Assembly (NCBI GenBank): GCA_024743195.1
Contig: JANSXE010000002.1
Coordinates: 248,001 to 312,000 of the forward strand
Length of the DNA stretch: 64,000 nt
Source: Alphaproteobacteria bacterium
GTDB taxonomy: Bacteria > Pseudomonadota > Alphaproteobacteria > UBA8366 > Aestuariispiraceae
Direction: 5' to 3'
Shown piece after piece: positions 20,549 to 26,396 of the stretch. The notes under the pieces were generated by a model that was given only the letters and a program-made list of their open reading frames with translations, ran no database searches and was not told where the DNA came from. The translations under genes were made by a program, and so were the position numbers. Numbering within the stretch: position 1 is the stretch's first letter; every line of letters starts with the position of its first letter.

Positions 20549-20838
20549 GTCCAGGTTTTCCGCCGCCTCTTGGCGCTTGACGCGGCCGGGCCGCGTCAGT
20601 AGCTTCCGCCGCCGTCGCGAAAGCGGCCGACTTCGGGCCGGCGCCCTTTGACGGCGCGACGGCTGTGTTACCATGAGGACCGGGCGGCGTTGGACCCCGG
20701 GTCGAGCGCCCCGGGCCCGGCGTCCAGGGGCGCCGGCCCCGCTTCGCGCTTCCGGCGCCGGCCTACGGCGGCCGGCGCGCCGCCTTCGTCCGGCGTTGCA
20801 GCCGGCGGCCGCGATCAGAAAGGATGTTCGAGAGCGCC
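20549..20838 (+). other. rpoN-hpf intergenic region with a perfect hairpin
   Basis: This 290-bp gap contains an exact inverted repeat, TGACGCGGCC-G-GGCCGCGTCA, at 20578-20598, which probably ends or attenuates rpoN transcription although no T-tract follows. The remainder is GC-rich with no credible gene. A TTGACG at about 20648 could be part of an hpf promoter, but no good -10 is spaced from it. Confidence 0.4.
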
Positions 20839-21438
20839 ATGCAGCTTGCAGTCAAAGGCAAACAGGTCGATGTCGGCGACGCCTTGCGCAGCCATATCGA
20901 GGAACGATTGCCCGCCTCCATCGGGAAGTACTTCGACAACACGACCGACGTGACGGTCACTTTCGCGAAGGACGGCCACGAATTCGCGGTCGACATCCAG
21001 GCGCACGTGTCGAAGCGCGTGCTGGTGCAGGGCCATGGCGCGGCGGCCGACGCCTACGCCGCCTTCGACGAGGCGGCCGAGCATGTGCTGAAGCGCCTGC
21101 GCCGGCACAAGCGCCGGCTGCGCGATCACAAGCAGAAGCTCTCCACGGCGGAGGCCATGCCGGCGCTGCAATACATTCTGGAGGCCGAGCAGGGGGACGA
21201 GAACGCGCCGGACGACGCGCCCCCGGCCGAGCCGATCATCGTCGCCGAGACGCCGACCCAGGTGGAGAGCATGACGGTCGGCGAAGCGACCATGCGTCTC
21301 GATCTTGCGGGCTTGCCGGCGCTGCTGTTCCGCAACGCCAAACATGGCGGCCTGAACATGGTCTACCAGCGCGCGGACGGGAACTACGGCTGGGTCGACC
21401 CGAAGCTTATCCCTGGCGAATCCGGCGCGTCGGACTGA
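20839..21438 (+). CDS. hpf: Ribosome hibernation-promoting factor, long form
   Basis: The 199-residue long-type HPF dimerises 70S ribosomes in stationary phase. The N-terminal S30AE domain (about residues 1-100) starts MQLAVKGKQVDVGDALRSHI and contains AADAYAAFDEAAEHVLKRLRR. The C-terminal dimerisation domain (about 140-190) shows MRLDLAGLPALLFRN and ADGNYGWVDPKLIP. The ATG at 20839 was chosen because family homology begins there. The in-frame ATG at 20824 directly abuts an AGAAAGG ribosome site and is less likely. Sigma-54 modulation was the historical name because of the rpoN linkage. Confidence 0.94.
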   Translation: MQLAVKGKQVDVGDALRSHIEERLPASIGKYFDNTTDVTVTFAKDGHEFAVDIQAHVSKRVLVQGHGAAADAYAAFDEAAEHVLKRLRRHKRRLRDHKQKLSTAEAMPALQYILEAEQGDENAPDDAPPAEPIIVAETPTQVESMTVGEATMRLDLAGLPALLFRNAKHGGLNMVYQRADGNYGWVDPKLIPGESGASD

Positions 21439-21535
21439 CCGCCGACCCTTGAGCGACTTCGGCCATCGCCCCAGGGTTGCACGCCCGGGCGTTTGCCGCC
21501 ACATAGTCACCGCGTGCGCGATCGAGAGAGAGCCG

Positions 21536-22003
21536 ATGGACATTCGCGATCTGTTGAGCACCGAGTGCGTTATCGAGACCCTCAACGTCTCGTCCAAGAA
21601 GCAGGCGCTGCAGGAATTGGCCAAACGCGCCGCCCAGATCACCGGGCTGGAGGAGCGGCGCATCTTCGACGTGCTGCTGGAGCGCGAGCGGCTGGGTACG
21701 ACCGGCGTCGGGGCCGGGATCGCGATTCCGCACGGCAAGCTGCCCGGCCTCGATCGGCTGCACGGCCTGTTCGCGCGGCTGGAGCGGCCGATCGATTTCG
21801 ATGCGATCGACGATCAGCCGGTCGATCTGATCTTCCTGCTGCTGGCGCCCGAGGGCGCCGGCGCCGACCATCTGAAGGCGCTGGCGCGGGTCTCGCGGCT
21901 GCTGCGCGACCGAACGGTGTGCGAGAAGTTGCGCGGCTCGGACAAGGCGGACGCCCTCTATGGGCTGCTGACCGACGCCCAGGCCTCGAGCCACGCCGCC
22001 TGA
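21536..22003 (+). CDS. ptsN: PTS IIA-like nitrogen regulatory protein PtsN (EIIA-Ntr)
   Basis: The 155-residue EIIA-Ntr protein accepts phosphate from the nitrogen PTS on the histidine in [10 protein letters not shown]. It starts [13 protein letters not shown] and has the typical [16 protein letters not shown] helix and a hydrophobic [11 protein letters not shown] strand. In other proteobacteria it controls potassium uptake, nitrogen metabolism and stress responses. GAGAGAGAG lies just before the ATG at 21536. It closes the rpoN cluster. No ptsP or NPr gene lies in this window. Confidence 0.95.
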
Positions 22004-22852: not shown

Positions 22853-23614
22853 TCAGCGCGGCGCCATTCTGAGCGCGCTGTCGAGCCGCACCACCTCGCC
22901 GTTCAGGATCGGGTTCTCGATCATGTGCAGCACCAGCTTGGCGAACTCGTCCGGCCGGCCGAAGCGCTGCGGGAAGGGCAGGGTCGCGGCCAGGCTGTCC
23001 TGCACCGCCTGGGGCATGCCGAGCAGCATCGGCGTGCCGAACAGGCCGGGCGCGATCGCGTTGACGCGCACGCCGGTCTTCGCGAACTCCCGCGCCGCGG
23101 GCAAGGTCAGCGACGCCACCCCGCCCTTGGAGGCGGCGTAGGCCGCCTGGCCGATCTGGCCCTCGAAGGCGGCCACGCTGGCGGTGTTGACGATGACGCC
23201 GCGCTCGCCGTCTTCGTTCGGCGCGCGGGTCTGCATGTCGGCCGCGGCCAGACGCATCAGGTTGAAGGTGCCGATCAGGTTCACCTGGATCACCGCGGCG
23301 AAGGCGTCCAGCGCCATCGGCCCGTCCTTGCCGACGATCTTGGCGGCCGGCGCGATCCCGGCGCAGCTCACCGCGACGGCGCAGGGGCCGTGGGCGTCGC
23401 GCGCGGCGGCGACGGCCGCCTCCAGGCTCGCCGCGTCGCTCACGTCGCAGGCGAGACCCAGCCCCCTGACCTCCGCCGCGACCGCTTGCACCGGGCCTTC
23501 CTTGAGGTCGAGCAGCGTGACCTTGGCCCCGGCGGCCGCCAGCGCGCGCGCCGTCCCCTCGCCCAGGCCGGAGGCCGCCCCGGTCACGATCGCCGGCAAT
23601 CCGTTTACGTTCAT
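22853..23614 (-). CDS. SDR family oxidoreductase (3-hydroxyacyl-CoA dehydrogenase type II-like)
   Basis: The 253-residue classical SDR binds NAD(H) through AIVTGAASGLGEGTARALA and a following acidic LLDLKEG. Its active site is serine in NTASVAAFEG and Tyr/Lys in YAASKGGV. The segment NLIGTFNLMRLAAADM and the HMIENPILNGEVVRLD C terminus resemble type-II 3-hydroxyacyl-CoA (HSD17B10-like) dehydrogenases of fatty-acid or branched-chain degradation. The exact substrate is inferred. GAGAGG precedes the ATG at 23614. It runs towards phhB, converging with it. Confidence 0.87.
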   Translation of the reverse strand: MNVNGLPAIVTGAASGLGEGTARALAAAGAKVTLLDLKEGPVQAVAAEVRGLGLACDVSDAASLEAAVAAARDAHGPCAVAVSCAGIAPAAKIVGKDGPMALDAFAAVIQVNLIGTFNLMRLAAADMQTRAPNEDGERGVIVNTASVAAFEGQIGQAAYAASKGGVASLTLPAAREFAKTGVRVNAIAPGLFGTPMLLGMPQAVQDSLAATLPFPQRFGRPDEFAKLVLHMIENPILNGEVVRLDSALRMAPR

Positions 23615-23711
23615 GGGCCTCTCGCCTTTCCTTCGCGTTGCGTTCAGTCGATGCGCGGGATGCGGCCAAAGCGATAGCCGGCGCCGGCGGCGCCGACAAG
23701 CCCGCCGCCGG

Positions 23712-24365
23712 TCACAGGTCTTCTTCTTCCAGGCGGGCCTCGAGGCTCTCCGGGTCCTCCGCCTCGATGACGAGACGGGCGACGTCGTAGGAGAAGCCGC
23801 GCCGGCCGAGCGCCGCCAGATCCCGCTCCCGGCTCTCCTCCCGGTCGCGCAGCCGGTAGGGGCCCAGCCGGCGCCGCCGCGCATAGGCGGCCGCCGCGGC
23901 CCGGTCCAGCGCCGCCGCCCCGCCGCCCCGGCCGTCCGCGCTCCCGCCGCCCTCGAACGCGTCGGGGTCCGCCGTCCTGTCCCGGATGAGGGCGTCCAGC
24001 GCCGCGTCCGCATCCTCGGCGGCGACGCCCTTCTGCGCCAAGGCCTGGCGGATCGCGCGAACCCCCTTGCCCTGGCGATGCAGGCTGGCGGCGCGCGCCT
24101 CCGCATAGGCCCGGTCGTCCAGCAGCCCGGCGGCGAGAAAGCGCGCGACCAAGGCGTCGACCGCCGCCGCGCCGGCCTGGCGGTCCGTGCCGTGCGCGCG
24201 GGCCGAGCGTTCGACCCGACGCATCAGCACACGGCGCAGGTTGTCCGCGCTGGTCGCGAAGCGCTCCAGATAGTGATAGGCGGCCTTCTCCAACCGCTCC
24301 GGCGTCGCCGGCTTGGGCGGGCGGCGGCGTCCGGCGCGGGGCCTCTCGTCCGGGTCGTTTTCCAT
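23712..24365 (-). CDS. recX: Regulatory protein RecX
   Basis: The 217-residue protein matches the RecX family of RecA modulators in helical-repeat pattern. Features are AYHYLERFATSADNLRRVLMRRV, LLDDRAYAEARAASLHRQGKG and IRQALAQKGV, then a C-terminal RERDLAALGRRGFSYDVARLVIE. A Gly/Ala/Asp-rich insertion of about 25 residues (DAFEGGGSADGRGGG) interrupts the repeats. The ATG at 24365 gives MENDPDERPRAG; homology starts near ATPERLEKAAYHYLERF. recA is not in the window. A CRP-type site lies 58 bp upstream and may influence this promoter too. Confidence 0.85.
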   Translation of the reverse strand: MENDPDERPRAGRRRPPKPATPERLEKAAYHYLERFATSADNLRRVLMRRVERSARAHGTDRQAGAAAVDALVARFLAAGLLDDRAYAEARAASLHRQGKGVRAIRQALAQKGVAAEDADAALDALIRDRTADPDAFEGGGSADGRGGGAAALDRAAAAAYARRRRLGPYRLRDREESRERDLAALGRRGFSYDVARLVIEAEDPESLEARLEEEDL

Positions 24366-24422
24366 GATGGCTCCCGACGGTAGCGGGGATTCGCGGCCGC
24401 ATCCGCAAAAAAATTCCCGACC

Positions 24423-24438
24423 TGTGACGCCGATCACA
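24423..24438. promoter_or_regulatory. Perfect CRP/cAMP receptor-type binding site
   Basis: TGTGACGCCGATCACA fits the consensus TGTGA-N6-TCACA without mismatch in either half. Its centre (24430.5) lies 41.5 bp before the predicted start at 24472, with a TATTCT -10 box at 24460-24465. This is the exact geometry of a class-II CRP-activated promoter. A small GCGGG-AAA-CCCGC stem (24439-24451) sits between the two. The site could also act on divergent recX. Confidence 0.7.
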
Positions 24439-24471
24439 GCGGGAAACCCGCCCCCCAGTTATTCTGCTCAT

Positions 24472-24617
24472 GGTTGGACGGCGGAGGCGCGAGAACGCGT
24501 CGTCGCCCGAAACACGGATAACCGGAAGGCCGGCGACCAAATCCTGCCCCTCCCATCCGGCGTCGGCCTAACGGTTCAAGGCGGCGGCGCTCCCAACAGG
24601 GAGCGCCGCCGTTCTTT
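24472..24617 (+). ncRNA. Predicted small RNA (about 145 nt) between recX and the ABC-2 permeases
   Basis: No protein gene occupies this stretch, yet it has a promoter-like start and a strong intrinsic terminator. The predicted transcript folds in order. A first stem pairs GGCG with CGCC around an inner GCGCG-AGAA-CGCGT hairpin (about 24479-24507). A short CCGG-AAGG-CCGG hairpin follows near 24522. Then comes an unpaired pyrimidine-rich stretch (CCTGCCCCTCCCATCC, about 24543-24558) complementary to Shine-Dalgarno purines. The terminator ends it. This is the architecture of a trans-acting regulatory RNA. A 33-codon frame starting at the predicted 5' end (24470) is an alternative. Confidence 0.55.
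24583..24617 (+). terminator. Strong intrinsic terminator
   Basis: GGCGGCGCTCCC (24583-24594) pairs perfectly with GGGAGCGCCGCC (24599-24610) around an AACA loop and is followed by GTTCTTTG. Nothing upstream on this strand is annotated as a gene, so it needs a transcript such as the predicted small RNA. Confidence 0.8.
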
Positions 24618-24688
24618 GTTCGCGCGCCGGCGCCGACCGACCGCGCCGGCTTGCTCCGTCCGGCGATCCGCGTATGGTGAGCCGCGTC

Positions 24689-25582
24689 ATGACAGCCTCA
24701 CCTTCCGACGCTTCCCGCCCTACGCCGCCGCCGGGCGTCCCGCTCGCCGACCGCGGGCGGCCGCCGCCCGGCACGCGCCGTCGCCTGTCACAAGGCCTGG
24801 GGCCGCGCCGCTTCGGCGCGGTCAATTGGCTCGGGCTTTGGAGCCTCTATGTGAAGGAGGTGCGGCGCTTCCTCAACGTCGCGACCCAGACGGTGGCCGC
24901 GCCGGTGGTGACGACGCTGCTGTTCCTCGCGATCTTCACGCTGGCGCTCGGCCGCTCGGTGGACGTGGTGCAGGGGGCTCCCTTCTCGCAGTTCCTGGCG
25001 CCGGGCCTGATCATGATGGCGATGGTGCAGAACGCCTTCGCCAACACCTCGAGCTCGCTGGTCATCTCCAAGATCCAGGGCAACATCGTCGACGTGCTGA
25101 TGCCGCCGATCAGCCCGGGCGAGATGGTGCTCGCCTACGCCGCGGCCGGCGTGACGCGGGGTCTGGTGGTCGGCCTGTCGGTCGGGGTCGCGATGGTCTT
25201 CTTCGTGACGGTGGAGATCCACCATCTCTGGGCGGTGCTGTTCTTCTCCGTCGCCGCCTCGCTGATGCTGGCCGTGATCGGCATCCTCGCCGGCGTCTGG
25301 GCCGACAAGTTCGATCATATGGCGGCGATCACCAACTTCGTGATCACCCCCTTCGCCTTCCTGTCCGGCACCTTCTATTCGATCGAGCGGCTGCCGCAGC
25401 CCTTCTACGACATCGCGCACCTGAACCCCTTCTTCTACATGATCGACGGTTTCCGCTACGGCTTCATCGGCAGCTCGGACGCTAGCCCCTGGCTCGGCGC
25501 GGCCGTGATGACGGCGATGAATGCGGGTCTGCTGCTCGCCGCCTGGATCCTGGTCCGGCGCGGCTGGAAGCTGAAGGCGTGA
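24689..25582 (+). CDS. ABC-2 type transporter permease (first of a tandem pair)
   Basis: The 297-residue protein has a Pro/Arg-rich cytoplasmic N terminus of about 40 residues followed by six predicted membrane segments of the ABC-2 (YadH/NodJ) family. The FLAPGLIMMAMVQNAFANTSSS segment and the PFAFLSGTFYSIERLPQPFYD loop with NPFFYMIDGFRYG are diagnostic. Such permeases export lipids, polysaccharides or drugs with a separate ATPase. The start could be ATG 24674 or 24689; GGTGAG before 24689 favours the latter. The second paralogue follows 7 bp later and no ATPase gene is adjacent. Confidence 0.88.
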   Translation: MTASPSDASRPTPPPGVPLADRGRPPPGTRRRLSQGLGPRRFGAVNWLGLWSLYVKEVRRFLNVATQTVAAPVVTTLLFLAIFTLALGRSVDVVQGAPFSQFLAPGLIMMAMVQNAFANTSSSLVISKIQGNIVDVLMPPISPGEMVLAYAAAGVTRGLVVGLSVGVAMVFFVTVEIHHLWAVLFFSVAASLMLAVIGILAGVWADKFDHMAAITNFVITPFAFLSGTFYSIERLPQPFYDIAHLNPFFYMIDGFRYGFIGSSDASPWLGAAVMTAMNAGLLLAAWILVRRGWKLKA

Positions 25583-25589
25583 CGCCAGG

Positions 25590-26396
25590 ATGGCCGGAGC
25601 CAGCCCGCCGCGCGTGCGCCGCTTCGGCCCGGTCAACTGGCTGGGGGTGGCGAGCCTCCTGAAGCGCGAGATGATGCGGGAGTGGCGCTTCTTCGGCGTC
25701 GCGATCCTGGGCCCGGCGCTGCAGGCGAGCCTGTTCGCCGCCGTCTTCACGCTCGCCGCCGGCGAGGCGGCGCCGACGCTCGGCGGGCTTTCCTTCTTCC
25801 AGTTCCTGGCGCCGGGCCTGGTGATCGCCGCCGTGATGCAGCGCGCTTTCGAATGCACCGCCTACACCTTGATGTTCGACAAGCTGGAGGCGGCGCTGCA
25901 GGACCTGCTGGGCGCGCCGATGACGGCGGCGGAGCTGTTGGCCGGCTGGATCGCCTCCGCCCTGGCGATTTCCAGCGCGATCGGGCTGACGGTGGCGCTC
26001 GCGATGGCCTTGTTCGGGCTCGGCTGGCCGGCGCATCCGCTGGCGGCGCTCTGGTTCGCGGGCTCGGCGATCCTGCTGTTCGCCGCGCTCGGCGTGATCG
26101 CGGCGATCCTGTCGGAGAAGTGGGACGGGCTCTCCGGCAAGGAGACCTTCGTGCTGGTGCCGCTGATCTTCCTGTCCGGCACCTTCTTCCCGCTGGAGGC
26201 GACGCCCGAGGGCCTCTGGCGCACGCTGTTCCAGGCCAATCCGATCCTCTATCTGGTGGACGGCTTCCGCTACGCGATGATCGGCCAGGCCAGCGTCGAC
26301 CCCTGGCGGGCGGGCGCCGTCGCCGGCGGGGCGGCGGTCTCCGCCATCCTGGCGGCGCACGCGCTGTTCCGCAGCGGCTACAAGATCAAGCCCTGA
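25590..26396 (+). CDS. ABC-2 type transporter permease (second of a tandem pair)
   Basis: The 268-residue paralogue of the preceding gene shares the opening RRFGxVNWLGxxSL, the FLAPGLVIAAVMQRAFE segment and the LIFLSGTFFPLEATPEGLW loop with NPILYLVDGFRYAMIG. Six membrane segments are expected. The pair is separated by 7 bp and surely co-transcribed, suggesting a heterodimeric membrane domain. Because no ATP-binding gene is nearby, the energising subunit must be encoded elsewhere. It ends 7 bp before the convergent DUF1223 gene. Confidence 0.88.
   Translation: MAGASPPRVRRFGPVNWLGVASLLKREMMREWRFFGVAILGPALQASLFAAVFTLAAGEAAPTLGGLSFFQFLAPGLVIAAVMQRAFECTAYTLMFDKLEAALQDLLGAPMTAAELLAGWIASALAISSAIGLTVALAMALFGLGWPAHPLAALWFAGSAILLFAALGVIAAILSEKWDGLSGKETFVLVPLIFLSGTFFPLEATPEGLWRTLFQANPILYLVDGFRYAMIGQASVDPWRAGAVAGGAAVSAILAAHALFRSGYKIKP

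Follow-up and report, generated by a model that had tools for sequence, protein, structure and literature searches.

Does the gap between recX and an ABC-2 type permease gene in an alphaproteobacterial genome hold a regulatory RNA and, if so, what would switch it on and on what would it act? The stretch of DNA that we analysed, called the window here, is 64,000 nt long (contig 29, 248001-312000, of the 4.17-Mb genome G000); in it, recX lies on the minus strand at 23712-24365 (Pfam RecX_HTH2), and the permease gene on the plus strand at 24674-25582 (family/Pfam match). An S30AE-domain gene of the ribosome-hibernation type adjoins a PTS EIIA type 2 gene at 20824-22003 (Pfam), about 2.4 kb before the region of interest. 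An earlier note, made from the sequence alone, had proposed a CRP-activated small RNA candidate with its own terminator here. Very probably, the gap does hold a genuine small RNA gene, one that has not been named before and is retained next to recX in many related bacteria; a CRP-type signal-sensing protein apparently turns its transcription on. We further consider it probable, at roughly 78%, that the product of this gene is a CRP-activated, trans-acting sRNA that acts on Shine-Dalgarno regions.

The CRP box and the predicted promoter

The promoter geometry that had been proposed, with a perfect CRP site exactly 41.5 bp before a start and a TATTCT element downstream of it, could be located in full. 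The box TGTGACGCCGATCACA (24423-24438, no strand assigned) is a perfect TGTGA-N6-TCACA, and its centre lies 41.5 bp before the start predicted at 24472, which is the class II position; the putative -10 element TATTCT follows at 24460-24465 on the plus strand, its first base 29 bp past the box centre. No other CRP site with at most one mismatch occurs in the window. Shuffled windows contain 0.35 such boxes on average, and 30 of 100 contain at least one, so that the box alone is modest evidence, and it is the comparative result that settles the question of an RNA gene. A perfect box was absent from all 200 simulated 64-kb windows (first-order Markov), and the 4.17-Mb genome holds five perfect sites, against none for the backwards control pattern. 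A sigma-70 scan returned no -35/-10 promoter within 23500-25800. CRP can stand in for the -35 contact at a promoter, and the outcome of the scan fits a promoter at which CRP replaces that contact.

Of the four other perfect boxes in the genome, one (L189, contig 15, 9475-9490) lies upstream of a DUF2336 gene, with a -10-like TAAGGT at +29 by reading, and this gene, too, possibly belongs to the CRP regulon; another (L191) lies within a long open reading frame.

The RNA and its relatives in the order

The predicted sRNA spans 24472-24622 on the plus strand, both ends being predictions, which would give a transcript of ~145-150 nt. Its computed fold reaches -83.5 kcal/mol (z -4.6), with none of 200 shuffles as low, and contains a 5' hairpin at 24480-24507 in the centroid fold, and a central hairpin at 24520-24576 that holds out a C-rich loop, computed to be at least 91% unpaired. 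The loop core CCUGCCCCUCCC at 24543-24554 is left open in the fold; with one further base, as CCTGCCCCTCCCA (24543-24555), it forms the proposed seed against Shine-Dalgarno sequences. The terminator that had been claimed for the unit is a strong one and lies ~145 nt past the predicted start, as a hairpin of 15 pairs at 24580-24613, with a perfect 12-bp part by reading, followed by CTTTGTTC; hairpin and T-rich tail together occupy 24580-24623, and the tail is weak in this copy.

Relatives of the unit were collected in two rounds. An initial DNA search of 59 genomes, including the window's own, gave a match in 13; of the 12 other matching genomes, 11 hold true homologues and one (L020) does not, and the latter, being without the loop core, was removed from the first alignment (A1). 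A covariance model (R1) was built from the 11 homologues and the window; its first position lies ~40 nt upstream of the loop core, so that it contains no promoter sequence. Searched with this model at E up to 0.01, 34 of 43 genomes of the order gave a match, and 29 loci, the window included, were accepted by their loop core. The sole matches of G017, G020, G023, G026 and G029 were rejected, the core being missing.

All 29 accepted loci carry the loop core CCTGCCCCT(C/T)CC, which is kept over ~12 nt while its stem varies. When these sequences are aligned (A3), 93.1% of cells pair, and 19 of 23 base pairs show compensatory changes on both sides; 112 cells are compensatory, compared with 31.2 in shuffles, and none of 500 shuffles had as many. 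Sliding the structure along the alignment lowers the paired fraction to 23-57%, and the terminator helix has 97.8% of its cells paired. As A3 was fitted to the model, it leans towards the structure; a MAFFT alignment of the first 12 sequences already shows compensatory change in 10 of the 23 pairs. The central stem is thus conserved by covariation.

The comparison extends to the promoter, which the model did not contain. The earlier note had named homologous genomes lacking both the CRP site and the terminator as the outcome that would count against it, and the opposite was found: each of the 29 loci keeps a box at the same geometry, scoring 10/10 in 11 and 9/10 in 18, with GTGA-N6-TCAC invariant throughout, window included. 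The hexamer at exactly +29 has A at position 2 in 29/29 loci and T at position 6 in 28/29, and begins with T in just 13/29. At each locus the box was chosen by score, as the top site within 200 nt upstream of the loop core, and the runner-up, never above 8/10, attains that score in 5/29 loci; the weight therefore rests on the constant spacing and on GTGA and TCAC being invariant. A CRP site placed as if to activate the RNA's own promoter is therefore a feature that all of these homologues share.

Could the RNA also encode a small protein, as a dual-function RNA? A 33-aa open reading frame does cross it in the window's genome, from an ATG at 24470. This codon precedes the predicted start by 2 nt, and neither start, frame nor length is conserved among relatives, in which the leader between predicted start and loop core ranges from 21 to 103 nt. 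We give this possibility next to no weight, and read the unit, as had been claimed, as stand-alone, apparently non-coding and with a terminator of its own.

A more substantial question is whether the box serves recX, or recX together with the RNA, in which case the RNA could be a by-product, or the leader of the downstream transporter gene. recX is the close, divergent neighbour in 24 of the 29 loci, and where a single upstream start candidate exists, the box centre lies 44-70 bp from it in 14 of 18 loci, so that the box could act on recX as well; ABC-2 genes follow the RNA in 9/29. However, the -10 hexamer is fixed on the RNA side in every locus, five of the 29 keep box and RNA with no recX detected on the stretch fetched, and five genomes of family f4 (G016, G020, G023, G029 and G032) have recX and neither box nor RNA. 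Moreover, a compensated RNA structure with a terminator is not what would be expected of a by-product. We regard an explanation by recX or the transporter gene as very unlikely, and keep to a promoter that would be the RNA's own, with a box that recX may share.

Beyond the order, R1 gave no convincing match. In a class-wide search, in which few candidates were scored for each genome, 6 of 385 genomes (L170-L175), lying outside the order, matched at E up to 1e-4, none with a CRP box or the core. A pattern of box plus core, run over the same number of class genomes, picked out four members of the family and a single genome from elsewhere (G082), and missed G000 itself, so that the pattern is not fully sensitive; the match in G082 was set aside, being without the core CCTG and, by reading, without a -10 at the fixed spacing.

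A candidate regulator and its distribution

The candidate for the CRP-type activator is L178, a protein of 232 aa with cNMP-binding and Crp-type HTH domains (Pfam). Structures of catabolite gene activator, which we take to be those of E. coli, align with it at E ~4e-18; its best full-length structure match is the CRP/FNR-family regulator 3d0s, and its best NCBIfam family is CRP, but at 79.8 bits against a cut-off of 266. At E up to 1e-15, L178 is matched in 39 of a set of 42 genomes that does not include G008, and not all of these matches are orthologues.

The recognition helix (helix F) reads TTRETVARV in each of the 27 orthologues read from families f1-f3 (RETVxR), which comprise 24 carriers of the RNA along with G007, G024 and G033, and THREAVTRE in all three orthologues read from f4. 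In E. coli CAP, R180, E181 and R185 are given as the main DNA contacts, and the RE(T..) motif as conserved in the Crp main cluster, in the Clr study (PMC10127613). The helix reading leaves out four f4 genomes and five carriers (G008, G025, G027, G028, G040): G028 and G040 have no L178 match at E up to 1e-15, the best match in G027 is only 45% identical, and that in G025 is split, with one internal stop. Within families f1-f3, the matching helix co-occurs with the RNA or its remnants in the genomes read; the three genomes in which a differing helix was read gave no copy of the RNA, which may point to a close tie to the regulator.

The genomes without an accepted copy add to this picture. recX is present in 11 of these 14, and was not found in G018, G026 and G034. 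Upstream of recX, G007 retains a diverged copy (L243) with a CRP box of 9/10, a -10 TAGTTT at +29 and a C-rich loop in a long hairpin, in which a T-tailed terminator is not evident. G033 (L249) and G024 (L250) have decayed copies beside recX with a degraded loop core, the box being still 8/10 in the latter remnant and lost in the former. Family f4 has an accepted copy in none of its seven genomes. Loss or presence could be read in all but three of the 11 recX loci: in G017 and G041 the contig ends within the region, and G039 is ambiguous.

As to the signal, the window's genome has 11 class III cyclase-domain matches, and cAMP or cGMP could therefore be the effector; Clr of S. meliloti is described as responding to both (PMC10127613). 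Put together, the mechanism that we favour would run as follows: L178 would bind 24423-24438 in the class II position and activate RNA polymerase at the -10 TATTCT; an RNA of ~145-150 nt would be made and ended at the hairpin terminator; the central hairpin would keep the conserved loop open for pairing with the purine-rich Shine-Dalgarno regions of several mRNAs, and the translation of these would be lowered when the cyclic-nucleotide signal is high. Drawn from sequence as inferences are transcription itself, the sign of CRP's effect (activation, not repression), the identity of the effector, the trans action on mRNAs and the targets, and likewise control by carbon status and action on ribosome-binding sites.

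Known RNAs, loop pairing and possible targets

The claim that the unit matches no known family holds against Rfam 15: no family reaches its threshold on the RNA unit, the sole match in the window being a tRNA elsewhere, and 0/20 relatives reach the threshold of any family. A description of this RNA was not found in the open-access literature either, which is weak evidence of absence. Could it nonetheless be a distant relative of a known alphaproteobacterial sRNA family, to which it has weak, sub-threshold similarity? The nearest is ar7 (RF02342), at 24.5 bits in small window stretches (E 0.0024-0.0034), followed by CcsR1 (RF02791), whose Rfam description names a CCUCCUCCC motif, at 17.2 bits (E 0.038-0.055); on the RNA strand, CcsR1 is seen again in 3/3 relatives searched singly (13, 16.4 and 14.8 bits; E 0.69, 0.065 and 0.21). 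Yet the gathering scores are 60 and 65.3, ar7 is absent both in eight relatives at E up to 10 and, at E up to 1, in the three that were searched singly, and CcsR1 appears once among the eight (L013), on the strand opposite the RNA. The C-rich loop and GC-rich terminator may explain these scores, and we hold a relationship to either family to be very unlikely.

The CyaR family is in Rfam, and was not among the results for the window's RNA and the 20 relatives. CyaR (RyeE) of enterobacteria is described as an sRNA that depends on CRP and binds ompX at its Shine-Dalgarno region (PMC11795201). The RNA analysed here likewise combines a CRP box with a loop that fits the Shine-Dalgarno sequence, and differs in its central hairpin with a C-rich loop and its place beside recX. 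Most likely it is a functional counterpart of CyaR, to which no homology was detected; we class it as a new family within a known kind, with CyaR-like promoter logic and seed type.

SMelC181 of Sinorhizobium meliloti is reported as an sRNA gene directly induced by the CRP-like protein Clr, its function being stated as unknown (PMC10127613). The likeness is that of an alphaproteobacterial sRNA gene under a CRP-like protein; Clr is said there to recognise a different DNA consensus and not to share E181 with CAP. The same authors note that few studies report sRNA regulation by a CRP. GsrN of Caulobacter, in turn, carries a run of six cytosines in an exposed loop, through which it pairs with G-rich sites in mRNAs; as described (PMC5869019), it is tied to the general stress response, its homologues typically lie near the genes of the regulators of that response, and its BLASTn matches are confined to Caulobacteraceae. 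The RNA described here shares the exposed C-rich loop, and differs in its CRP-box promoter and recX neighbour.

Pairing of the loop with a Shine-Dalgarno-like sequence is a computed possibility: against GGGAGGGGC it reaches -22 kcal/mol, with shorter consensus sites at -8 to -9. That sequence precedes ATG more often than the backwards control, by at least 2, in 31 of 42 genomes and not in 11, so that sites are common at possible starts. Among the matches listed for GGGAGGGGC-N(1-12)-ATG, 120 places were fetched (103 of the 105 distinct ones in f1, 17 in f3, none in f2 or f4), 84 of them with an open reading frame of at least 40 aa; these frames formed nine clusters, one of three genomes (G011, G022, G028; xanthine-dehydrogenase-like by reading) and eight pairs, some of which seemingly represent sites inside genes. 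Seven of the listed places lie in the window's genome, including an ABC permease, a universal stress protein and an AMP-binding enzyme; one place there is shared with G001 and is, by reading, a polyamine-type permease, on a fragment without a Pfam match. As these places have no background comparison, we claim no targets.

The loop could alternatively act by titration: in this reading, a CRP-activated RNA would use its C-rich loop to tie up a protein or some other RNA. A core kept over ~12 nt in every accepted locus would suit such a role, as would the fact that, among the matches listed, the loop-complement pattern yielded no widely shared mRNA target. The strong computed pairing with a purine-rich sequence and the abundance of that sequence at possible starts speak against it, as does the precedent of GsrN, whose C-rich loop pairs with a G-rich mRNA site (PMC5869019). 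We think titration unlikely, and prefer action on Shine-Dalgarno regions.

A search for the loop complement, G-U variants included, gave 52 rows in 42 genomes, 30 of them exact complements; 23 of these are the RNA gene itself and seven lie elsewhere, with a best CRP-like site of 5-6/10. One of the seven (L223; G001 contig 1, 7700-8500) has a core CCTGCCCCTCCC at ~390 in a hairpin, followed by a terminator, directly after the stop of a chemotaxis-receptor-like frame (by reading) and without a CRP box; it is possible that this is a 3'UTR-derived RNA sharing the seed.

Perhaps, and here we are tentative, the RNA is an order-wide hub riboregulator that does CyaR's job by independent origin and is closely tied to its regulator, with a seed that may be re-used in the CRP-independent unit of G001; if so, the seed would be a reusable module. 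The fixed promoter geometry, the near-invariant seed, the likely regulator and the natural losses together offer a clean system for following cyclic-nucleotide signalling to translation, and the RNA family supplies a covariance model for annotation. Elsewhere in the window's genome (L224; contig 22, 43980-44096, minus strand), a hairpin-plus-terminator unit that is without the core scores 29.9 bits with R1, and is possibly another sRNA.
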